Assembly (NCBI GenBank): GCA_018433865.1
Contig: JAHDQJ010000003.1
Coordinates: forward strand, 186,001-250,000
Direction of reading: 5' to 3'
DNA: 64,000 nt
From: Spirochaetales bacterium
GTDB taxonomy: Bacteria; Spirochaetota; Spirochaetia; Sphaerochaetales; Sphaerochaetaceae
Made by a program: the position numbers and the translations under genes. The notes under the pieces are model-generated. The model saw only the letters and a list, made by a program, of their open reading frames with translations, was not told the DNA's origin and made no database searches. Numbering within the stretch: position 1 is the stretch's first letter; each line of letters opens with the position of its first letter. Below, in pieces: positions 45,870 through 56,380 of the stretch.

Positions 45870-47033
45870 CTACTTCACATCGAACCACTTTCCCGTGATG
45901 GACTGTTCGATCCGTTCGTTCAGGTGGTCCGGTTTCAGGATCTCGTTGGCACAATCCAGGCAGAAATTATCGCTCATTCCCGCGACATAGTCGAAGATGA
46001 TCCTGTCGAGGTTCCCGTCGTGTCTCAGATAGGGCTCACGCATCTCCTTGAGATGCAGCATGAAACCGACGGCAAGCATGTTCTTCTCTTCCTGATACGG
46101 TTTTTCCTCGAAACCGAACTGATCGAACAGGCCTTGCAGATAATCCACGATGAGCCGCAAGAGGCGGGTAAAGTACTTGCTGTACCCTTCGAGCATCGGC
46201 GAGAGATAGATCGATCGGTAATTGTATTCCTTCATCGCAAGCACCGCCTCGAACACAGGCTCGGAAAAGGCGACTCCACACTCCGGCGAGGAAGAATCGA
46301 TCAAATCGTTCACCAAGGTATCGATGATGCTGGCATTCTTGCTCCCGAGCCGCTCTACGACGATTTGGGGGATTGACTTCGCTTCTATGATCGACAACCT
46401 GCACGCATCCTCATAGTCCCTTCCGAGATACGCGATCTGGTCGGAAAAGCGGACCACCGCAGCTTCCCACGTGGCAGGAACCGCCTCGGTACGGCTGGCG
46501 AGCAAGGAGAGGTCCCGTTGTGCGAACCGGGGCATAAGCACCCGTTCGAACCGTTCTCCGTTGTGGCAGGCGATTCCGTCCCGTACCGCGTACGTCAGGT
46601 TCAGTCCCTTTCCATGTTCGGCAAGGAAATCGACGATGCGCAGGGAGTTCAGTTCATGCTCGAATCCTTCGAACCCACGTTCGGCCATCATCGATGCCAG
46701 GATGCGTTCGCCTACGTGACCGAATGGGGTGTGGCCGAGATCATGACCCATCCCGATGGCCCAAGCAAGTTCGGTGTCGAGGCCGAGCCCCCTGCAGACC
46801 GCCGTGGCAATCGATGCGACGTGCAAGACGTGCTCCATCCTGGTGCAGATATGATCGTTGCTCGGTGCGAAGAAGACTTGGGTCTTGTGCTTGAGTCGCC
46901 GAAACGCTGAACTGTGGATGATTGCAGTCGTATCCCGATAGAACTCACCGCGCACATCGGTATGCCTGCGCACCGATCGTGCTTCGAGCACCTCACGAGG
47001 CAATCCATTCTGAAACCGTCGCGTGCCATCCAT
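45870..47033 (-). CDS. dGTPase-like deoxynucleotide triphosphohydrolase (HD domain)
   Basis: About 387 residues with the dGTPase/SAMHD1-type HD fold: SAFRRLKHKTQVF, TRMEHVLHVASIA, then GMGHDLGHTPFGHVGE with the HD pair near residue 110, and a further Asp in VVRFSDQIAYLGRDYED. It hydrolyses dNTPs to nucleosides and triphosphate. The ATG at 47033 is preceded by AAAGGGGG and gives the normal N-terminus, so the longer frame from 47084 is not needed. Preference for dGTP is not certain, as many homologues use several dNTPs. Confidence 0.9.
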   Translation of the reverse strand: MDGTRRFQNGLPREVLEARSVRRHTDVRGEFYRDTTAIIHSSAFRRLKHKTQVFFAPSNDHICTRMEHVLHVASIATAVCRGLGLDTELAWAIGMGHDLGHTPFGHVGERILASMMAERGFEGFEHELNSLRIVDFLAEHGKGLNLTYAVRDGIACHNGERFERVLMPRFAQRDLSLLASRTEAVPATWEAAVVRFSDQIAYLGRDYEDACRLSIIEAKSIPQIVVERLGSKNASIIDTLVNDLIDSSSPECGVAFSEPVFEAVLAMKEYNYRSIYLSPMLEGYSKYFTRLLRLIVDYLQGLFDQFGFEEKPYQEEKNMLAVGFMLHLKEMREPYLRHDGNLDRIIFDYVAGMSDNFCLDCANEILKPDHLNERIEQSITGKWFDVK

Positions 47034-47090
47034 AGGACCCCCTTTCCGAGAGCAAGGCCGTACTTCCCTATCCTCTTGCTCCATGGTATC

Positions 47091-47594
47091 ATGTTCACCA
47101 TGCTGATGCTACTGGTCTCCGTATTCACCACATTGCTCTGCTTCCTGAGTGCTGCGGCATGCCTCAGGTTCCTGTTCTCACGCCAAGGGTGGTTCTGGGT
47201 TTTCCCCCTCGCCCTCTCCGTCATCTTCCTTTACATCAGCATATCTCCGCTCCATGCGATCGCCACCGGATTGTTGGAGGGCAGCTATCGTGTCGAGATC
47301 AGTCCCGACCGAAGCGTTCGCGAGGTCGTCCCCCTGGTCATCGTGCTTATCTGGTACGCGATGATCATCACCTTCCGCTATGCACTCAAGATGGTGGTGC
47401 CTGACAACAAACACATGCTCGATACGATGAAGAACCTGAAAGAGGCCCGCTACATGCAGCGCATCGAGTTGCGCAGGTACCAGCGGGATGCTCGCCGGAA
47501 GTTACGCCTTGCGGTCAGGGTACATCGTGAACATACGGGCTCCCGCTATCCGGTGAATTGGATAGCGCTGTTCGACGACCACCGCAGGAGCTGA
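47091..47594 (+). CDS. Small membrane protein of unknown function
   Basis: About 167 residues. Three hydrophobic segments lie in the first ~105 residues (MLLVSVFTTLLCFLSAAA, FPLALSVIFLYISIS and VVPLVIVLIWYAMIITF). They are followed by a strongly basic, probably cytoplasmic tail (MQRIELRRYQRDARRKLRLA). I recognise no family. No ribosome site is visible. A -10-like TATCAT at 47087-47092 sits 7 nt before an ATG at 47100, so the true start may be 47100 on a leaderless mRNA. It ends 2 bp before the aroK-like gene and is probably cotranscribed with it. Confidence 0.6.
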   Translation: MFTMLMLLVSVFTTLLCFLSAAACLRFLFSRQGWFWVFPLALSVIFLYISISPLHAIATGLLEGSYRVEISPDRSVREVVPLVIVLIWYAMIITFRYALKMVVPDNKHMLDTMKNLKEARYMQRIELRRYQRDARRKLRLAVRVHREHTGSRYPVNWIALFDDHRRS

Positions 47595-47596
47595 TC

Positions 47597-48181
47597 TTGG
47601 CCATCGTCTATCTGGTGGGAATCAAGCACTCGGGAAAGAGCTCGGTGGGCAAGGAGGCTGTATCCCTTCTCAATCCTACCGGGTCCATCTCCTTCTTCGA
47701 CACCGACGACCTTGCCACTGCCCTCATGGATGCGCGTCATGCCTCATTGCGCCAATTCTATCGTGAACAGGGAAAAGAGGCTTTCATGGACCTTGAATAC
47801 CGTGCAACGGCAGGCTTGCTGGCCCAACTGTCAGGCTCCACGGTCATTGCAACCGGCGGGGGGGCGTGTGACAACGATCCGTTGGTCAACCTGATGCGCA
47901 CCTCAGGCACGATAGTCTACCTCTCGGTCGAAGAGCAGGTCCTTTTCGAAAGAATCATGGCACATGGGCTTCCGCCGTTTCTCGATCCGGCTGACCCACG
48001 GGCCTCCTTTCATGCGCTGTATCTTCACAGGGATGCCCTGTATAGGCAGATTTCCGATTGTGTGGTATCATTGTCCGATTACCGATCTATCCTTGGGAAT
48101 GCGCAAATCCTCGCCGATTGCCTTCGCAAGATTGTCGGAAGTGAGGAGCCATGCCGGGAAATACCTTTGGAACAGCACTGA
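47597..48181 (+). CDS. aroK: Shikimate kinase-like protein
   Basis: About 194 residues of the shikimate kinase fold. The P-loop is GIKHSGKSS (8-16), FDTDD carries the substrate-binding Asp, IATGGGA is the Gly triad, and HRDALYRQISD carries the C-terminal Arg. Two usual arginines are missing. The Arg in the motif corresponding to E. coli GFRDRE is Met here (AFMDLE). The lid Arg of the RPLL motif is absent (GLPPFL). Because aroC follows with a 31-bp overlap, a role as shikimate kinase is still the best guess. The start is TTG at 47597, with CAGGAG 6 nt upstream. Confidence 0.75.
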   Translation: MAIVYLVGIKHSGKSSVGKEAVSLLNPTGSISFFDTDDLATALMDARHASLRQFYREQGKEAFMDLEYRATAGLLAQLSGSTVIATGGGACDNDPLVNLMRTSGTIVYLSVEEQVLFERIMAHGLPPFLDPADPRASFHALYLHRDALYRQISDCVVSLSDYRSILGNAQILADCLRKIVGSEEPCREIPLEQH

Positions 48182-49200
48182 GGATCACTACCTTCGGAGA
48201 ATCGCACGGGGCGGCCCTGGGGGTTGTGATCGATGGACTCGAGAGCAACTTCCCCATCGACCTGGACCATCTTGCCCTGCAGATGGCACGCCGGCGTCCC
48301 GGCGGGAATCCATTGGGAACGAAACGACAGGAGCCTGATTCGGTCGAAGTCCTCTCGGGCATGTTCGAGGGAAAGACAACCGGTGCGCCCTTGGCCATCA
48401 TCATCAAGAATACCAACCAACGTTCCGGCGATTATCATGATATCAGTCGTCTCTATAGGCCCGGACATGCAGACCATACCTGGCAACAGAAGTTCGGGAT
48501 CAGGGATTGGCGCGGAGGCGGACGCTCGAGCGGCCGCGAGACTGCCGCTCGTCTTGCCGCAGGAGCTATCGCCATGCAGATCCTTGAGAAAAAAGGCATT
48601 CACATCCAAGCCTACACGATCAGCATCGGAAACATTCTTGCACACAAGCGCGATTATGATGAGATTGCCTGCAATCCCGTCAGTGCTCCCGATGCCGAAG
48701 CGGCTATCCTGATGGAGCAACTGATAGAACGGATGCGCGAGGAACAGGACAGCGTCGGTGGTGTGATCGAATGCAGGATCACGGGACTGCCCTCCGGACT
48801 CGGAGAACCGGTGTTCGACAAAGCGGATGCCCTGCTCGCACACGCGATCCTTTCCATCGGAGCTACGAAAGGGATCGAGTTCGGTGACGGATTCGCTTGC
48901 GCAAGCCGTCGCGGTTCGGAGAACAATGACCAGATGGATGCCGATGGATTCTTGACAAACCATGCCGGAGGCATCAACGGTGGCATCACCAACGGAGATA
49001 CCGTGGTGTTCCGGACCGCTGTCAAACCGACATCCTCGATAGGAATGCAACAAAAGACCGTGGATATGGAAGGGAATGAGCGGACCATCGTCGTGGAAGG
49101 CCGTCACGATCCGTGCATCTGCGTGCGGATCATTCCGGTTGTGGAGGCGATGAGTGCGATCACCCTCCTCTCCTTGTGGTATGAACAACATGGCAGATAA
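48151..49200 (+). CDS. aroC: Chorismate synthase
   Basis: A 349-residue, FMNH2-dependent enzyme converting EPSP to chorismate, the last step of the shikimate pathway. Signatures are ITTFGESHGAALG near the N-terminus, RPGHADHTW, and WRGGGRSSGRETAAR near residue 120, then FGDGFACASRRGSENND. The chain is complete, with a normal family length. The start overlaps the aroK-like gene by 31 bp, and the end overlaps the XPB helicase start by 11 bp, so it lies inside a tightly packed transcript. Confidence 0.97.
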   Translation: MPGNTFGTALRITTFGESHGAALGVVIDGLESNFPIDLDHLALQMARRRPGGNPLGTKRQEPDSVEVLSGMFEGKTTGAPLAIIIKNTNQRSGDYHDISRLYRPGHADHTWQQKFGIRDWRGGGRSSGRETAARLAAGAIAMQILEKKGIHIQAYTISIGNILAHKRDYDEIACNPVSAPDAEAAILMEQLIERMREEQDSVGGVIECRITGLPSGLGEPVFDKADALLAHAILSIGATKGIEFGDGFACASRRGSENNDQMDADGFLTNHAGGINGGITNGDTVVFRTAVKPTSSIGMQQKTVDMEGNERTIVVEGRHDPCICVRIIPVVEAMSAITLLSLWYEQHGR

Positions 49201-50848
49201 ACCGCTGATCGTACAGAGCGACCTCAGCATGATGCTCGATGTGCACAGTCCCTCCGCGGAACTTGCACGGAACGACCTGTTGGCATTCGCGGAGCTGGTG
49301 AAGTCTCCCGAGCATGTCCACACCTATGCAATCACCGCGATCAGCCTGTGGAACGCAGCATCTGCAGGGATCGGTGTGGAACAGGTACTCGAACGGCTCG
49401 CACGATGGTCGCGCTATGCGATCCCGGAGCCGGTGACTTTCCATATCAGGGAAATAGGCGGCCGGTTCGGGTGCATCCGCCTTGAATTGCATCATGATGA
49501 TCAGGATCACTACCTGCTTACGGTATCGCAGGAACGGTTTGCGAGGGAAATCATGGCACGCAAGCAGATTGCCGCCATGCTCAAAGTCGCCGGCAATGGA
49601 TTCCTCGTTCCACGGTATCAGCGTGGTGAGCTGAAGCTTCAGTTGATCAAGCTCAATCTTCCTGTCGATGACCGCATACCCCTTGACCGGGGGGAACCGG
49701 TGTCCCTTGCGTTCCGTTCCGTATCACTGCGTGGCATACCATTCGTTTTGCGTGATTACCAGAAGATGGCGGCAAACGCGGTTCTTGGAAATGGAGAACC
49801 GGGTACCGGATACGGAACGATCGTATTGCCGTGCGGAAGCGGCAAGACCGTGGTCGGCATGGAGATCATGACTCGGCTTGCCACGCGAACTTTGATCCTC
49901 ACGACGAACGTCGCCGCGGTTCACCAATGGATCGCCGAGATATCCGACAAGCTGTCCATCCAAAGCGATCAGGTCGGCGAATACTCCGGAATGCGCAAGG
50001 AGATCAAGCCGATCACCGTCTGTACGTATCAGGTGCTTACCTGGAGGGCGGACAAAGCGGGCGATTTCCCGCACATGCGGGTGCTGAAAGAGGGAAATTG
50101 GGGACTGATCATCTATGATGAGGTCCATATGCTCCCCGCCCCCGTATTCAAGGTCACCGCCGAGCTCCAGGCGATCCACCGCGTAGGCCTCACCGCCACG
50201 CTGATCCGCGAGGACCACCGTGAGGACGAGGTTTTCTCACTCGTTGGTCCCAAGCGCTTCGATATCCCGTGGAGCGAATTGGAGAGCAAAGGCTGGATCG
50301 CGGAAGCCGAGTGTACGGAAATCCGGGTTCCGCTGCCTCGTGAGCTCGAGATTCCCTATGCCATCGGGAACAAAAGGGAAAAGTATCGTATCGCGAGTGA
50401 GAATCCGGAGAAGATCCAGATAGTGAAAGACCTGATCGAAAACCATCCGACCGATTTCATCCTTGTGATCGGACAGTATCTGGATCAATTGAAGACGCTC
50501 GCGAAGGAACTCGATGCTCCCTTGATCACCGGTTCGACTGCCAACGCACGTCGCGATGAACTGTATCGCTTGTTCAGGGAGGGAAAGCAGCGGATCCTGG
50601 TCGTATCGAAGGTTGCGAATTTCGCGATCGACTTGCCGGACGCATCGGTCGCGATCCAGGTCTCGGGAACCTTCGGCTCCAGACAGGAAGAGGCCCAACG
50701 GTTGGGCAGGATATTGAGACCGAAACAGCAGAGTTCCCACTTCTACTCACTCGTCACGCGATTCTCCTCTGAGGAGGAGTTCAGTGCGAACCGGCAGAAG
50801 TTCCTTACGGAGCAAGGCTATACGTATCATGTGGAGGTCTGGGAATGA
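49190..50848 (+). CDS. XPB/Rad25-type SF2 DNA helicase
   Basis: About 552 residues. An N-terminal domain (to about 180) is followed by an SF2 motor: VLPCGSGKTVVG near 215-226, YDEVHM near 308, GLTATLIREDHRED with the RED motif diagnostic of XPB, and QRLGRILRPK near 505. XPB helicases unwind DNA in archaeal and eukaryotic repair, and bacterial versions occur sporadically, including in mycobacteria and treponemes as I recall. The next gene overlaps by 4 bp (ATGA) and encodes a helicase-associated-domain protein, the same pairing I remember from mycobacteria. The ATG at 49190 is chosen, since upstream in-frame codons lie deep in aroC; no strong ribosome site is visible. Confidence 0.92.
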   Translation: MADKPLIVQSDLSMMLDVHSPSAELARNDLLAFAELVKSPEHVHTYAITAISLWNAASAGIGVEQVLERLARWSRYAIPEPVTFHIREIGGRFGCIRLELHHDDQDHYLLTVSQERFAREIMARKQIAAMLKVAGNGFLVPRYQRGELKLQLIKLNLPVDDRIPLDRGEPVSLAFRSVSLRGIPFVLRDYQKMAANAVLGNGEPGTGYGTIVLPCGSGKTVVGMEIMTRLATRTLILTTNVAAVHQWIAEISDKLSIQSDQVGEYSGMRKEIKPITVCTYQVLTWRADKAGDFPHMRVLKEGNWGLIIYDEVHMLPAPVFKVTAELQAIHRVGLTATLIREDHREDEVFSLVGPKRFDIPWSELESKGWIAEAECTEIRVPLPRELEIPYAIGNKREKYRIASENPEKIQIVKDLIENHPTDFILVIGQYLDQLKTLAKELDAPLITGSTANARRDELYRLFREGKQRILVVSKVANFAIDLPDASVAIQVSGTFGSRQEEAQRLGRILRPKQQSSHFYSLVTRFSSEEEFSANRQKFLTEQGYTYHVEVWE

Positions 50849-52857
50849 GTGCCATCCCGTCTCGGATCGAGCTCTGGGAACGTTCGATGGCGAGCCTCAG
50901 CGACTCGGTATTCCTCGATTTGCTCAAGAATTTCATCGGGAAGGTCCCTACCCCGTTCCACAGGCCGCAATTGGTCAAGCAACTCACCACTCTCTTCTCA
51001 TCCGAGGATTTCATCACACGTGTCGAAGTGAGCCTCAGTGAATCGGACTGCCGCCTGCTGACCGGTTGTGCGATCCTCGGTTGCGCCACGCAAGATGAGT
51101 TGTGCTCGCTCCTCATCGATGAGTATCCGTATGCCGCGATCCAGCAAAATGTGGTCAATCTCGAGGAGAGGTTGCTCCTGGTACCGGATCCGGAGAGCAT
51201 CGGGTCACGACCTTCATTGATGCTCAATCCGTTGCTCATGCAACGGTTGCTCAGCAAGTCTCTTGCTATCGGTCACTTGCTCGGGTTCCCCGCCGAGGGG
51301 GATTCACCCTTGTCATGGCATGCGGACAAGCGGATCGTCAGGGCCCTGGCCAGCTTGCACATGCATGCCTCGCTGGGAAACCTGGAACGGAGCGAACGAT
51401 TGCTTGCATCCAGGCATGCGAAGAGTATTTTCGGTGCCGAGGATGCACGTTCGGTCGAACGGCTGCTGCTCTACAACCGGCTGTTGTTTGTTTCCGACAT
51501 CGTCGTACCGAACGGAAAGAACGTCAGGGTCTCGACGGAGAGATTGCAGATGGTCCTCAATGAGGATGAGAAAAGCCTTGGGAGACGGCTGTTCAGCACC
51601 CTCTTGCAGCACATTCACCCGCAAGATCGTCAACGGTACGAACGGGAAGTCCAGATCTTCTACGAGACCTTTCACCAGCTCTTGGCATACGCATGGGAGG
51701 ATGATCCTCTCGTGCTGAAGAAAATCTGCACGATTGCGAGCCACCGCAGCGCTCTTGCGATCGGCAACATGGATGAATTCATCAGGTTGCTGCGGGTCAC
51801 GGGAGTGTGGAAGCATGGAAGGGATGGGGATGCGGAAGATTCCGCGGTCACCTTGAGACCCACCCTGGACAGCGATCTCACCATCTCCTTTACCGGTGAC
51901 GTGCAGCCTGTCGGAAACAAGGACATCCTCCACTGCATCTCGGTTGTCAGGAAAGTCGATGTGGTCACTTCGTACGAGATATCCAAACCGACCATACTCA
52001 GGGCATTCGATCTCGGACTTTCCGCCTCGCACATCCTTGCTTACCTTGAGGGCCTGACACACACGACACCTGCAAGCCTCAACGATCTCATCCGTCATTG
52101 GGAAGCTGAATTCGGTGCCATCACGATCTATGATGGCATCCTCGTGAAGACCGATGAACGTCTCGGAAGAATCATCAAGGTCCTTCCCGCGGTCCAATCC
52201 CATATCATCCGTATCATTGAGGATACCTTGTTCCTCATGGCACGGAGTACGGAACAGCAGTGGCGGGAGATCCTCGGGGCGACAGGAGTGCTCATCCTTC
52301 CGAGCAGCATCTCCGAACACACTTTCCCGCAATCCTCGCAACCCCCTTCGGTCACCCTGGACACACCGCAACCGCCCATCAGGGAACTGCGCATGCTTCT
52401 GGGCGACCTTGGAGCCCAGACGAAGATGTTGCAGACGGAACAGGGAGATCGCCTGCAGCGCGAATTGCGATCGCTCATCGATGCGAAGCGGCTGCAGAAA
52501 GCGCAGAAAGAGGAATTGGTCGCGAGACTTGAACGGAAACTCATCCTCACTGCCAGCCAGATCGATGCGACTGTGGGGCGTACGCAGACCTTGGAGGCGA
52601 GCGGTTTCGATTTCCAGGGAAAGCTCAACCTCTGCAAGGCAGCGGTCAACTCATCCGTCGATTTGCTGGAGCTGCATATGCTTGAACCTGACGGAGGAAC
52701 ACACGTTTTGCTGACGGAGGTGAAGGAATTCATCAGGGACTCAAAGGAAGCCGCAATACGGGTACGGGTCCTTCCGAACGGAGAGGAGCGAGTGATCCTG
52801 ATCGACAAGGTGTTCCGCGTCAGGAAACTGAGGCGTTCAATCTTCTTCCAAGCCTAG
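50845..52857 (+). CDS. XPB partner with a helicase-associated (Helicase_C_3-like) domain
   Basis: 670 residues. The N-terminal ~330 are helical with winged-helix-like stretches. At about 340-428 a section runs from DLTISFTGDVQPV through VDVVTSYEISKPTILRAFDLG to LIRHWEAEFGAITIYDG; it resembles the helicase-associated C-terminal domain found in proteins encoded next to bacterial XPB. A charged coiled coil follows (about 510-580). The final ~60 residues (HVLLTEVKEF ... RVRVLPNGEERVILIDKVF) look like a small WYL/SH3-like beta unit. No catalytic motif is seen. The 4-bp overlap with the XPB gene implies a stoichiometric partner; its biochemical job is unknown. Confidence 0.75.
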   Translation: MSAIPSRIELWERSMASLSDSVFLDLLKNFIGKVPTPFHRPQLVKQLTTLFSSEDFITRVEVSLSESDCRLLTGCAILGCATQDELCSLLIDEYPYAAIQQNVVNLEERLLLVPDPESIGSRPSLMLNPLLMQRLLSKSLAIGHLLGFPAEGDSPLSWHADKRIVRALASLHMHASLGNLERSERLLASRHAKSIFGAEDARSVERLLLYNRLLFVSDIVVPNGKNVRVSTERLQMVLNEDEKSLGRRLFSTLLQHIHPQDRQRYEREVQIFYETFHQLLAYAWEDDPLVLKKICTIASHRSALAIGNMDEFIRLLRVTGVWKHGRDGDAEDSAVTLRPTLDSDLTISFTGDVQPVGNKDILHCISVVRKVDVVTSYEISKPTILRAFDLGLSASHILAYLEGLTHTTPASLNDLIRHWEAEFGAITIYDGILVKTDERLGRIIKVLPAVQSHIIRIIEDTLFLMARSTEQQWREILGATGVLILPSSISEHTFPQSSQPPSVTLDTPQPPIRELRMLLGDLGAQTKMLQTEQGDRLQRELRSLIDAKRLQKAQKEELVARLERKLILTASQIDATVGRTQTLEASGFDFQGKLNLCKAAVNSSVDLLELHMLEPDGGTHVLLTEVKEFIRDSKEAAIRVRVLPNGEERVILIDKVFRVRKLRRSIFFQA

Positions 52858-54294
52858 GTTTTGTTCGAGCCGTTTCGGATAATGGTACCCGGTGAATGAT
52901 TCGAACTGCAACTTCCCCTGCCTCACCAGCATGTCGATGCCGAACATCAGCTTGGATCCCGCTTGTCGCGCCCGCTTGAGCATCGCAGTGTATCGTGGAC
53001 GGTAGACGAGTTCGTATACCACATGGCGCTCAGCAAACGGAAAATCGGGTATCGGATCTCCATCCGCATCAGGGATCATGCCCACGCTTGTGGTCTGCAC
53101 GATGAGGTCGACTTGCGCATGGTGGGCAGCATGCTCAAGCGAGTCGAACGAGGCCATCGTCTCATCAGCGAGCTGACGTGCCCGCTCTATGTTCCGGTTC
53201 AGGATCGTGACCCGGCACCCATGATTGCGCAACGCCCAGACCACCGATCTCGCTGCCCCTCCCGCCCCGATCACCAGCGCGCTCTGGATACGCTTGGCAT
53301 CAATGTCGGCGACGATCGGTTCGATGAATCCATAGTAATCAGTGTTTGTTCCCATCCACAGGTTCTTCGCCCGTACGACCGTATTGCAGCTTCCGATCTG
53401 CTTCACCTCACGTGTAATCTTGCCCAGGTACGGCAGGACGGCCTGTTTGTGGGGAACCGTCACCGAAAATCCCGAGATCTTGATCATCTCGGCAAGAATG
53501 AAGAAAGACCGGACCGAATCCACGGGAAACGGAAGGTAGATCGCATTGAAATTGATCCCGTGGAACCCGGGGTTCTGGATCAAAGGGCTGAAGGAATGAA
53601 GCACCGGATTGCCGATGACCCCGAATATGCGGGTGCGATCATCGACCTTGTCCGCGCGGTACAGCTCCTTCATCTTTTGTGCGGAGATCTGTCCTGGCGC
53701 GACCGGTTTGTCCGCACAGTACGTCAACATGGACCCGATCTTCTTGTACAGTATCCTGCTCGGGAGGCCGAAATCACCCATTCCCAGGACGATCTTCTCC
53801 GTCACGGAGGAGAGTTCTTCCTTGACCCTGAACAGGGTGATGAGATCGAGCACCGAATGAGGAGTGACCGCCATCTTCGGAATGTCGCCTTTCGCAGCGA
53901 CCCTCGCGATCCTATGGAAAATGTCCGAGGGAATGCCCGAGAAATCATGCAGTGAGCGGATGATCCTGATGCCCCGTTCCCGCGCCTTCTGTTCCGCAGC
54001 ACACCGTTTCACATCCTCCTCAATGTCCACGTAGGCAAACTTGCCTTCCAAGCAGGATTCAATGAGTGCCAACCTGGTCTTCTCGGGACCCGCATAGGAG
54101 CCTCCGTCGACTACCCTGCGACAGGTAAGGATCACCGGGAGATCGACCATCGAAGGGAATTCGGCTGCCGCAACACGTGCATGCTCCCCAAGAAGGTCGA
54201 TGCGCAATTCCATGAGGTCGATGTATGGTCTGTTGAGGGAGAATTGTGAGAGGTTCTCCTCGATCGTACTACCTGACAGAACCAAACAAATCAT
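52837..54294 (-). CDS. aroDE: Bifunctional 3-dehydroquinate dehydratase / shikimate dehydrogenase
   Basis: About 485 residues in two parts. Residues 1-215 form a type I dehydroquinase, with the Schiff-base Lys in IPKMAVTPHSVLDL and the general base His in IIRSLHDFSG. Residues 225-485 form a shikimate dehydrogenase, with GVIGNPVLHSFSPLIQN, the catalytic Lys in TVPHKQAVLPYL, Asp in TNTDYYGF and the NADP loop VIGAGGAARSV. It catalyses two consecutive steps, from dehydroquinate to shikimate. The D-E order is that of plant and chlamydial fusions. GGAGG lies 8 nt before the ATG at 54294. It is convergent with the XPB-partner gene, overlapping it by 21 bp, and has its own promoter. Confidence 0.94.
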   Translation of the reverse strand: MICLVLSGSTIEENLSQFSLNRPYIDLMELRIDLLGEHARVAAAEFPSMVDLPVILTCRRVVDGGSYAGPEKTRLALIESCLEGKFAYVDIEEDVKRCAAEQKARERGIRIIRSLHDFSGIPSDIFHRIARVAAKGDIPKMAVTPHSVLDLITLFRVKEELSSVTEKIVLGMGDFGLPSRILYKKIGSMLTYCADKPVAPGQISAQKMKELYRADKVDDRTRIFGVIGNPVLHSFSPLIQNPGFHGINFNAIYLPFPVDSVRSFFILAEMIKISGFSVTVPHKQAVLPYLGKITREVKQIGSCNTVVRAKNLWMGTNTDYYGFIEPIVADIDAKRIQSALVIGAGGAARSVVWALRNHGCRVTILNRNIERARQLADETMASFDSLEHAAHHAQVDLIVQTTSVGMIPDADGDPIPDFPFAERHVVYELVYRPRYTAMLKRARQAGSKLMFGIDMLVRQGKLQFESFTGYHYPKRLEQNLGLEED

Positions 54295-54368
54295 CGGAGA
54301 CCCTCCCTGGAACATGATGACGCGTAGAAGGACTCCTTGCATCCCGGTGCGCCGTTATGGTACCTTTC

Positions 54369-54397
54369 ATCATACTCGCAACAGCTTGAATCTGCAA
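54369..54397 (-). promoter_or_regulatory. Promoter of the aroD-aroE fusion gene
   Basis: On the minus strand TTGCAG (54392-54397), 17-bp spacer, TATGAT (54369-54374), leaving a leader of about 68 nt before the ATG at 54294. Confidence 0.6.
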
Positions 54398-54421
54398 CAC
54401 CTTACGTCAAACGGGGAGCAC

Positions 54422-56380
54422 ATGGGGACACTTCAGGTACAGAACATCCATCTCGCATACGGAGACAGGGATCTCCTCAAGGATGTCTCATTCACCCTCT
54501 CCGATCAGTCCCGTGCCGCCCTTGCCGGTGGCAACGGTTCGGGAAAATCGACCCTCCTGAGGATCATCAGCGGTGAAATTGCCTGCGATAGCGGAAGTAC
54601 TGCAAAGAGCAGGAACCTGCGCATCTCCTACCTTCCCCAGTCCGATATCGTGCATGAAGGGAACTCGGTCTTCCAAGAGGTGGAAAAAGGGTTCCGCAGG
54701 TTCGACGCCATCCTCGCACGCCAGAGGGCCATCGAGAACCAATTGGCACGCCTGCAGGCAGATCGCAATGCCGAACCCCTGTTGCACGAGTTGCATGAAC
54801 TGCAGGAAACCGTGTTGCACAGTGCATACTACCGTCGTGATGCGGTCATCACGTTGGTGCTGAAGGGCCTCGGATTCTCCAAGGAGGATACCCAGCGCAG
54901 TTGCGATCAGTTCAGCGGCGGATGGCAGATGCGCATCGCACTTGCGAAAGTCTTGGTCGAAGACCCTGACGTGATGCTGCTCGATGAACCTACGAACTAT
55001 CTCGACATAGAAGCGAGAATCTGGCTGCGCAACTATCTCCGGCAGTACCGCGGATCGGTGATGATTGTCTCGCACGACCAGGACTTCCTCGACGAGACGG
55101 TCAATGAAGTTTATGAACTGTTCAACGGCAGACTGAGCCGGTACAGCGGAAACTATACCTCCTATCTTTCCCAGCGAGAACTTGAACTCGCCCAGCTTGA
55201 GAAAGCGTACAAGAACCAAGCGAAGGAGATAGAGAGGACGGAACAGTTCATCGAGAGGTTCCGGTACAAGGCGACCAAGGCCAAGCAGGTCCAAAGTAGG
55301 GAAAAACAGCTTGGGAAGGTCGAGGTCATAGAGATCCCGCAGCATTTGAGAAAGCTTTCCTTCTCATTCCCCGATCCTCCGCACAGCGGAAATGATGTGC
55401 TCACCGTACGGGATCTTGCCAAGTCCTACGGTCCGCTGGAAATCTTCAAGGATCTGAACTTTATCATCAACAAAGGAGATCGTCTCGCCGTCACCGGTCG
55501 CAACGGTGCAGGAAAATCGACACTCCTCAGGATGCTTGCCTGCATCGACAGTGCCTATGCGGGAATCATCGAATATGGTGCCGGTGTGCGGATCGGTTAC
55601 TTCGCACAGGATACGGAACATACATTGGATCCGAACCTCAGCATACTCGAAGAGGTGGAAACGATTGCCGATACCTCCGACATCCCCCGCTTGCGCTCAC
55701 TTCTCGGTTCGTTCCTCTTCAGTGACGATGATGTGGACAAGAAGGTCGCCGTCCTCAGTGGTGGCGAGAAAAGCCGGCTCGCGTTGCTGAAGATACTCTT
55801 GCATCCGGTGAACCTGCTGATCCTGGACGAACCGACGAACCACCTGGACATCAATGCGAAACAGGTGTTGCTCGAAGCACTGCGCCAATACAAAGGTACG
55901 GTAGTGTTCGTTTCACACGATACCCACTTCATCAAGCATATCGCCAACAGGATACTGTATCTGAGCGAGGATCCTCCCGAGTTCTTCGAGGGAGATTATG
56001 AGTATTTCTCATGGAAGCTGGAGGAGAAGGAGGCATACGAGCAGGATGCTGAACCGAAGACGCCGGACCGGTCGAAGACCCAGCAGCCGAAAGAATCGGC
56101 CCTCTCCCGCAAGGAAACCAACAGGATGAAGAACCGGTTGAGGAATCTCGCCTCCGATGCCGACAAGTTGCTGGAACGCATCGCCCAGGAGGAGTCCCGT
56201 TCCGCGGAGATCGATCGCCTGATGTCGCTTGAGGAGAATTACAGTGACAGCGAGGCGATCACCTCACTGCTCGCGAAGAAGCAGGAGGTGCTTCGCCTCC
56301 ACGAGCAACTTGAGGAGCAGTGGTTTGCGATCCATGAGGAGATACAGACGATGGAGGCAGAAATTGGCAGTGGTTCCTGA
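54422..56380 (+). CDS. ABC-F family ATPase
   Basis: About 652 residues with two ABC domains and no membrane part. Walker A motifs are GGNGSGKSTL (near 38) and GRNGAGKSTL (near 360). The signatures are FSGGWQMR and LSGGEKSRLAL, each followed by an LLDEPTN/ILDEPTN Walker B. The charged interdomain linker (about 245-300) is the P-site tRNA interaction motif region. A C-terminal coiled coil (about 560-645) is Uup/YheS-like. Such proteins bind the ribosomal E site and act on stalled or antibiotic-bound ribosomes; which member this is cannot be decided. The ATG at 54422 is preferred because it gives the normal N-terminus (MGTLQVQNIHLAYGDRDL) and GGGGAG lies just upstream. Confidence 0.93.
   Translation: MGTLQVQNIHLAYGDRDLLKDVSFTLSDQSRAALAGGNGSGKSTLLRIISGEIACDSGSTAKSRNLRISYLPQSDIVHEGNSVFQEVEKGFRRFDAILARQRAIENQLARLQADRNAEPLLHELHELQETVLHSAYYRRDAVITLVLKGLGFSKEDTQRSCDQFSGGWQMRIALAKVLVEDPDVMLLDEPTNYLDIEARIWLRNYLRQYRGSVMIVSHDQDFLDETVNEVYELFNGRLSRYSGNYTSYLSQRELELAQLEKAYKNQAKEIERTEQFIERFRYKATKAKQVQSREKQLGKVEVIEIPQHLRKLSFSFPDPPHSGNDVLTVRDLAKSYGPLEIFKDLNFIINKGDRLAVTGRNGAGKSTLLRMLACIDSAYAGIIEYGAGVRIGYFAQDTEHTLDPNLSILEEVETIADTSDIPRLRSLLGSFLFSDDDVDKKVAVLSGGEKSRLALLKILLHPVNLLILDEPTNHLDINAKQVLLEALRQYKGTVVFVSHDTHFIKHIANRILYLSEDPPEFFEGDYEYFSWKLEEKEAYEQDAEPKTPDRSKTQQPKESALSRKETNRMKNRLRNLASDADKLLERIAQEESRSAEIDRLMSLEENYSDSEAITSLLAKKQEVLRLHEQLEEQWFAIHEEIQTMEAEIGSGS

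Follow-up and report, generated by a model that had tools for sequence, protein, structure and literature searches.

Analysis of a 64,000-nt stretch of the genome of a Spirochaetales bacterium (family Sphaerochaetaceae; GCA_018433865.1, contig JAHDQJ010000003.1, positions 186,001–250,000, forward strand; hereafter the window, in whose own numbering positions are given) identified a gene for an XPB-type helicase followed directly by a gene for a large protein, here called the partner, that resembles the p52/TFB2 subunit of the eukaryotic complex TFIIH. In TFIIH, p52 recruits XPB by pairing its clutch domain with the XPB N-terminal domain (NTD), and p52/p8 both stimulate and limit the XPB ATPase (PMC6422496, PMC7708078, PMC9557730). 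We consider it probable that the two window proteins represent a minimal bacterial equivalent of TFIIH's XPB-p52 part, XPB being its motor and the partner its regulatory scaffold, to which a tail binding single-stranded DNA (ssDNA) has been added. The features computed here are the p52-like sequence and predicted fold of the partner, the clutch domain shared by both proteins, residues of p52 type, near-obligate co-occurrence, the overlap of the two genes in an operon and a WYL-like tail. The pair would further be expected to form a physical complex with a controlled ATPase, to bind ssDNA and to be used in DNA repair.

Similarity of the partner to p52/TFB2

A profile made from an alignment of 16 full-length spirochaete partners from related genomes (group A1) was searched against all PDB sequences, and its top six matches were p52/TFB2 of TFIIH (E 6.5e-6 to 1.2e-4), with XPB being reached only at E 0.4; p52 was thereby preferred by about 14–16 bits. 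The aligned region began in the domain preceding the clutch and extended as far as the beginning of the p52 C-terminal domain (CTD); it includes the segment LPqnl..W.eEyssarlykGi. This similarity was reached by profiles only, as a phmmer search of PDB with the single window partner sequence returned nothing even at E 10. A contig scan with a single sequence reached only two close relatives. Single-sequence searches miss the partner because it evolves fast: XPB of the window is 75% identical to that of locus L002 and 65% identical to that of locus L003, while the partners of the same genomes are 35% and 26% identical, so that the two members of the proposed complex, a slowly evolving XPB and a fast evolving partner, differ strongly in rate.

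The predicted fold pointed in the same direction. An AlphaFold2 model of the window partner built on the A1 alignment (predicted local distance difference test, pLDDT, 80; predicted template modelling score, pTM, 0.72) was compared with PDB using Foldseek, and all 18 matches at E ≤ 0.001 were p52 chains from human and fungal TFIIH, the best with E 6.4e-8 over about 520 aligned columns at about 13% identity. These were followed by XPB NTDs (E 3e-3) and WYL-domain proteins (E 0.009–0.15). A second partner family from other classes of the phylum (A2), in which the clutch lies near the C-terminus and a WYL tail is absent, was modelled independently (pLDDT 86.5) and again gave 18 matches at E ≤ 0.001, all of them p52. 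Pfam PF03849 (Tfb2) did not match the window protein; in relatives it matched below threshold (E 0.00025–0.01), and those matches that could be located lay at the profile's clutch end. The gathering score was not reached, and the partner is therefore termed p52-like here and not a member of the Pfam Tfb2 family.

PF13625 was found in both window proteins (XPB residues 6–131; partner residues 341–429), which therefore share a homologous domain. In an alignment of 52 clutch-like domains, for which the human and yeast p52 and XPB segments were taken from HMMER output, the human p52 clutch tryptophan W394 corresponded to W419 of the window partner. Tryptophan occupied this position in all 13 other A1 sequences, in all nine A2 sequences and in Paenibacillus and Deinococcus, in comparison to none of the 17 XPB sequences; the clutch of an Actinomycetota partner (one sequence checked) lacked it. 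Similarly, R348 of p52, paired in TFIIH with E397 (PMC9557730), corresponded to K381 in the window and to lysine or arginine in every A1 and A2 partner and in none of the 17 XPB sequences. In an unrooted clutch tree of 95 columns, one branch (support 100/99) divided the XPB NTDs, bacterial and eukaryotic alike, from p52 together with all partners; internal support on the partner side was weak.

Residues 1–183 of the window XPB matched the yeast and human XPB NTD in phmmer searches (E 8e-11 to 2.5e-10), and a profile of 12 bacterial XPB NTDs reached eukaryotic XPB at E 6.5e-21; the same profile returned no p52 from PDB even at E ≤ 10. Judged by sequence, the window XPB NTD corresponds to the domain through which eukaryotic XPB binds p52.

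Co-occurrence of XPB and the partner

In a census of 297 genomes of the class (partner threshold E ≤ 1e-5), XPB was found in 213 and the partner in 213. After a recheck of weak cases, 211 genomes had both, 2 had XPB only, 4 had the partner only and 80 had neither (phi 0.95, Fisher p about 1e-64, statistics that ignore shared ancestry). In a few of the 211, the partner match is weak or fragmentary; weak A1 matches suspected of being XPB NTDs proved on recheck to be nearly all separate open reading frames (ORFs), usually adjoining XPB. One of the two XPB-only genomes is 68% complete, and the four partner-only genomes are 71%, 76%, 83% and 99% complete. The genes lie far apart in four closed genomes (G019, G031, G126 and G056) but both are kept there, as they are in a genome of 1.1 Mb, and the pair is nearly inseparable within the class. 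In a sample of 149 genomes of the phylum, counted by hand, 115 carried XPB, of which about 88 also had a partner, and none of the genomes with a partner and no XPB was closed. The preliminary description of this locus, which was made from the DNA sequence, had named wide occurrence of the partner without XPB as an outcome that would speak against a coupled system, and such genomes were few (4 of 297 in the class and 8 of 149 in the phylum). It had also named mycobacteria as having the same pairing, which agrees with the presence of the pair in Actinomycetota: plasmid and chromid records from Bacillota, Deinococcota, Actinomycetota and Cyanobacteriota showed XPB adjoining a PF13625 partner or within a few kb of one.

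The location of XPB pairs on plasmids and chromids, together with the frequency of WYL proteins and SF2 (superfamily 2) helicases in defence islands (PMC9122601), could be interpreted as an anti-phage or mobile-element defence pair composed of a helicase and a WYL accessory protein. We regard this as very improbable. PADLOC returned nothing for the partner, and its matches for XPB were of a generic helicase kind; window positions 46000–56000, the part examined around the pair, showed neither defence nor mobility genes; and unlike defence genes, which are patchily distributed, the pair is carried by nearly all members of many spirochaete families and retained in the 1.1-Mb genome.

On three Deinococcus plasmids, the XPB and partner genes are separated by one for a 99–115 aa AT-hook-like protein (L135 6741–7070, L154 2175–2474, L153 2522–2869), which overlaps the partner start and carries a small conserved C-terminal domain, for which no profile match was obtained. 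Its beta-alpha-beta-beta-alpha appearance raised the question of a p8 equivalent, which found no profile support and is not claimed; the protein could be a third subunit. On a resistance plasmid of Corynebacterium diphtheriae (erm(X), PBP2M), an IS3 element follows a shortened XPB-like gene (L139 3995–5575). Plasmids of Rhodococcus, Kitasatospora and Streptomyces (L152 2480–4837) encode a partner-like PF13625 protein, and XPB did not appear among the best matches from the plasmid concerned.

Domain layout and genomic setting

The features of the locus are collected in Table 1. The XPB ORF scored above the cut-off of 610 bits for NF045503 ('DNA repair helicase XPB'), matched human XPB over its full length and also matched PF16203; besides the motifs tabulated, a DEVH motif occupies residues 310–313. 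An alternative in-frame start is possible at the ATG at position 49181. DNA-dependent ATPase/translocase activity is established for XPB of Mycobacterium tuberculosis (PMC3353954) and is predicted for the window XPB.

Table 1. Features of the XPB-partner locus in the window.
Feature	Position	Strand	Basis
aroC (chorismate synthase), upstream neighbour	48151..49200	+	NF003793/TIGR00033
XPB-type SF2 helicase/translocase, 552 aa	49190..50848	+	NF045503 799 bits; PF16203 E 3e-44; human XPB phmmer E 1.4e-77
XPB NTD, residues 6–131	49205..49582	+	PF13625 E 2.3e-28
Walker A GSGKT, XPB residues 216–220	49835..49849	+	motif
RED motif, XPB residues 340–342	50207..50215	+	motif
ATGA stop/start overlap of XPB and partner, 4 bp	50845..50848	+	ORF ends
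p52/TFB2-like partner, 670 aa	50845..52857	+	A1 profile against PDB; Foldseek
Helical N-terminal part, partner residues 1–325	50845..51819	+	AlphaFold2 model; Foldseek alignments reach into this part
Clutch (HubA)-like domain, partner residues 339–430	51859..52134	+	PF13625; K381, W419, E422
Small beta-alpha-beta-beta-alpha domain, partner residues 431–482	52135..52290	+	order of elements in model
Helical/coiled-coil connector, partner residues 511–575	52375..52569	+	AlphaFold2 model
WYL-like beta-rich tail, partner residues 584–664	52594..52836	+	Foldseek
aroD-aroE fusion, convergent downstream neighbour	52837..54342	-	profile matches

In the partner, residues 1–325 are predicted from the modelled fold to be the counterpart of the winged-helix part of p52 (NTD/MD1). 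The PF13625 match (E 3.2e-9) scored 37.3 bits against a cut-off of 34.2. Residues 431–482 sit at the place of the p8-like C-terminal domain of p52, where the A1 hidden Markov model (HMM) alignment reaches the start of the p52 CTD, and Pfam Tfb5 matched weakly (E 0.0062) in the equivalent region of the A2 partner type. NCBIfam holds no named family that matched the window partner, and the protein matched no enzymatic family. Much of this layout had been anticipated in the preliminary description: an XPB helicase with a RED motif, its 4-bp overlap with a 670-residue protein (borne out by the ATGA and the ORF), a PF13625-type domain expected at residues 340–428 and found above cut-off one residue further on, and a coiled coil and WYL/SH3-like tail, both visible in the predicted structure. 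The partner was also correctly called non-catalytic, judging by family matches. Among partner groups, the clutch was observed mid-protein, near the C-terminus or near the N-terminus (L112 for A2, L105 for A3, the window for A1), and partner architecture has therefore been reshuffled repeatedly.

Foldseek searches with the predicted structure recovered an Sm/SH3-like fold of WYL type in the window tail, whose matches were WYL chains of PafBC, BrxR, CapW and DriD (probability mostly 0.9–1.0, E 0.009–0.15). The Pfam WYL family (PF13280) gave no match on seven isolated tails, including those of the window and five class relatives. A Nocardia partner carries PF13280 at its C-terminus, after the clutch, above cut-off (E 2.2e-5), and together with the window fold this places a clutch followed by a WYL or WYL-like domain in two phyla. 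The WYL domain binds ssDNA in PafBC (PMC11804915) and in DriD as well (PMC12340889). The tail, combined with the winged-helix-like N-terminus, might alternatively belong to a DNA-damage-responsive WYL regulator like PafBC and DriD, which govern damage genes; it would respond to ssDNA and act on XPB among other genes, the clutch serving only to keep the protein near XPB or to dimerise it. We find this decidedly unlikely: the top structural matches of the whole body were p52 and not WYL regulators, A2 partners end soon after the clutch without any tail, and the partner gene, downstream of XPB and translationally coupled to it in the window, co-occurs with XPB even in several genomes where the two are unlinked.

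XPB is preceded by aroK and aroC, and aroK, aroC, XPB and the partner form four successive overlapping genes on the + strand (window 47558–52857), the 3' end of aroC sharing 11 bp with XPB. This run suggests co-translation that is confined to the source lineage; since four genes in a row overlap here, overlap by itself says little. It also provides the argument for regarding the XPB-partner overlap as an accident of the aro region, with an unrelated role for the partner, a reading that is refuted by the census and retains next to no likelihood. The aro genes are not conserved whereas the pair is (phi 0.95 in the class), adjoining pairs occur in five phyla, and a homologous domain is common to both proteins. 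Among the loci tested, aroC adjoining XPB was kept only in the close relative L002 and aroD-aroE near the pair only in L002, L003 and L121. A functional aro link was rejected on these grounds, with aro neighbours kept only in L002 and in part in L003 and L121, and the neighbourhood was judged incidental, as the preliminary description had supposed in seeing no evident metabolic link.

A probable minimal XPB-p52 unit in bacteria

Several observations weigh against a p52-type partner acting with XPB. Owing to differing domain arrangements, global TM-scores (template modelling scores) to p52 were low (mostly 0.22–0.24 by query, up to 0.44 by target); the claim is therefore one of a domain-by-domain match in the same order. 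Position E397 of p52 is E422 in the window partner and glutamate in only 6 of the 13 A1 relatives. The partner clutches of the spirochaete group A3 scored nearer XPB than p52, as did groups A5 (Actinomycetota) and A6 (Deinococcota and Paenibacillus), and descent shared with p52 is therefore supported chiefly for the spirochaete groups A1 and A2; from these profile comparisons, the p52 sequence link is weak outside Spirochaetota. The window tail is assigned to WYL from its fold and from a relative in another phylum. Finally, family f16 (22 XPB genomes in the phylum sample) had no partner within profile reach, although its XPB is complete, NTD included (L131, L132). These are small genomes, presumably Brachyspira-like, and they indicate that XPB can work alone or with something else.

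The groups nearer XPB also bear on an independent bacterial invention, in which the clutch would be a duplicated XPB NTD placed on unrelated winged-helix and WYL domains, so that the partner binds and regulates XPB with no descent from p52. Such an origin would suit the varying architectures, with the clutch internal or C-terminal, and an unrooted tree of 95 clutch columns cannot date the duplication. We nevertheless consider it unlikely, given that the Foldseek match to p52 covers about 500 columns and extends beyond the clutch, that A1 favours p52 over XPB by the margin given above, that the common W and K/R are missing from XPB, and that XPB NTDs split cleanly from partners and p52 in the tree. 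The stronger proposition, that bacteria hold a two-subunit TFIIH-like core of XPB and a true p52 homologue that predates or gave rise to the eukaryotic module, was inherited as a unit and has its own ssDNA sensor, seems to us evenly balanced between being right and being wrong.

For the counterpart of the XPB-p52 part that we favour, the following mechanism can be proposed. The XPB NTD would pair with the homologous clutch of the partner as a pseudo-symmetric beta-sheet dimer, clamping XPB, and the small domain after the clutch, at the position where the p8-like domain of p52 cradles XPB RecA2, would arrange the helicase cassette such that ATP hydrolysis is switched on but restrained. In TFIIH, p52 and p8 likewise raise XPB ATPase activity yet cap its maximum rate (PMC7708078). 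The helical, winged-helix-like N-terminal arm may dock the unit on another protein or on DNA, and the WYL-like tail, which is absent from eukaryotic p52, would bind ssDNA and thereby place or retain the motor at a bubble, gap or lesion. A role in DNA repair is more likely than one in transcription initiation, as bacterial sigma-70 promoters are not known to need an XPB-type motor and some spirochaetes lack the pair. The earlier suggestion that the partner loads, regulates or targets XPB in a two-component system gains support from these results, both from the PF13625 match and from the rarity of partners without XPB, since the partner resembles p52, which is known to recruit XPB and tune its ATPase; such a system would presumably act in repair or transcription.

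Comparison with known systems places the pair closest to TFIIH. On its predicted fold, the partner has the same order of parts as p52/TFB2 (GTF2H4), namely a helical winged-helix N-terminal part, a clutch homologous to the XPB NTD and a small, putatively p8-like domain, and the two share the clutch residues W394 and R348, a near-obligate relation to XPB and a predicted fold match; the bacterial partner differs by its added helical connector and WYL-like tail, its low identity and its bacterial host. The window XPB has the NTD, RecA1/RecA2, Walker A, DEVH and RED elements of eukaryotic XPB/Ssl2 but not the eukaryotic C-terminal extension, and it has one predicted partner in comparison to a complex of 7–10 subunits. 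The archaeal XPB-Bax1 helicase-nuclease complex likewise joins an XPB-type motor to one dedicated partner, although Bax1 is an XPG-related nuclease binding thumb and HD2 (PMC13024598) whereas the window partner is p52-like and non-catalytic as judged above, and XPB of the archaeon A. fulgidus lacks a standard NTD (PMC3353954). Among bacteria, mycobacterial XPB (Rv0861c, Ercc3) also has an NTD, and actinobacterial plasmids and chromids encode XPB with a 'helicase-associated domain-containing protein' that carries a clutch, plus WYL in Nocardia; these Actinomycetota partners differ in that their profile as a group is nearer XPB and the one clutch checked has no p52-type tryptophan. PafBC and DriD share the C-terminal WYL-like fold with known ssDNA binding, and some bacterial Pif1 helicases have WYL fused to the helicase. 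The window partner is unlike these WYL regulators and WYL-Pif1 in that its body is p52-like and not a transcription activator, and its motor is a separate protein.

Neither the existence of XPB in spirochaetes nor the 'helicase-associated' annotation of partners is new. In 2012, p52 homologues were stated not to be found in bacteria, and since none of the other TFIIH subunits was known there, bacterial XPB was treated as likely to act with no TFIIH-like complex (PMC3353954); a 2026 review described the function of bacterial XPB as still elusive (PMC13024598). Targeted literature searches, whose scope did not extend to subscription papers and preprints, returned no later claim of p52 identity for the bacterial partner, which appears to be unreported, although priority is not certain. 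If the partner is a p52 counterpart, the function of bacterial XPB can be tested directly as that of a two-protein machine, and past assays of the bacterial helicase by itself may have missed its regulator. A minimal XPB-p52 pair would also provide a simple model for the part of TFIIH that is hit by xeroderma pigmentosum (XP) and trichothiodystrophy (TTD) mutations. Should the reading hold, the XPB-p52 module of TFIIH would have bacterial relatives as a unit, and bacteria may own a stripped-down TFIIH-like machine.

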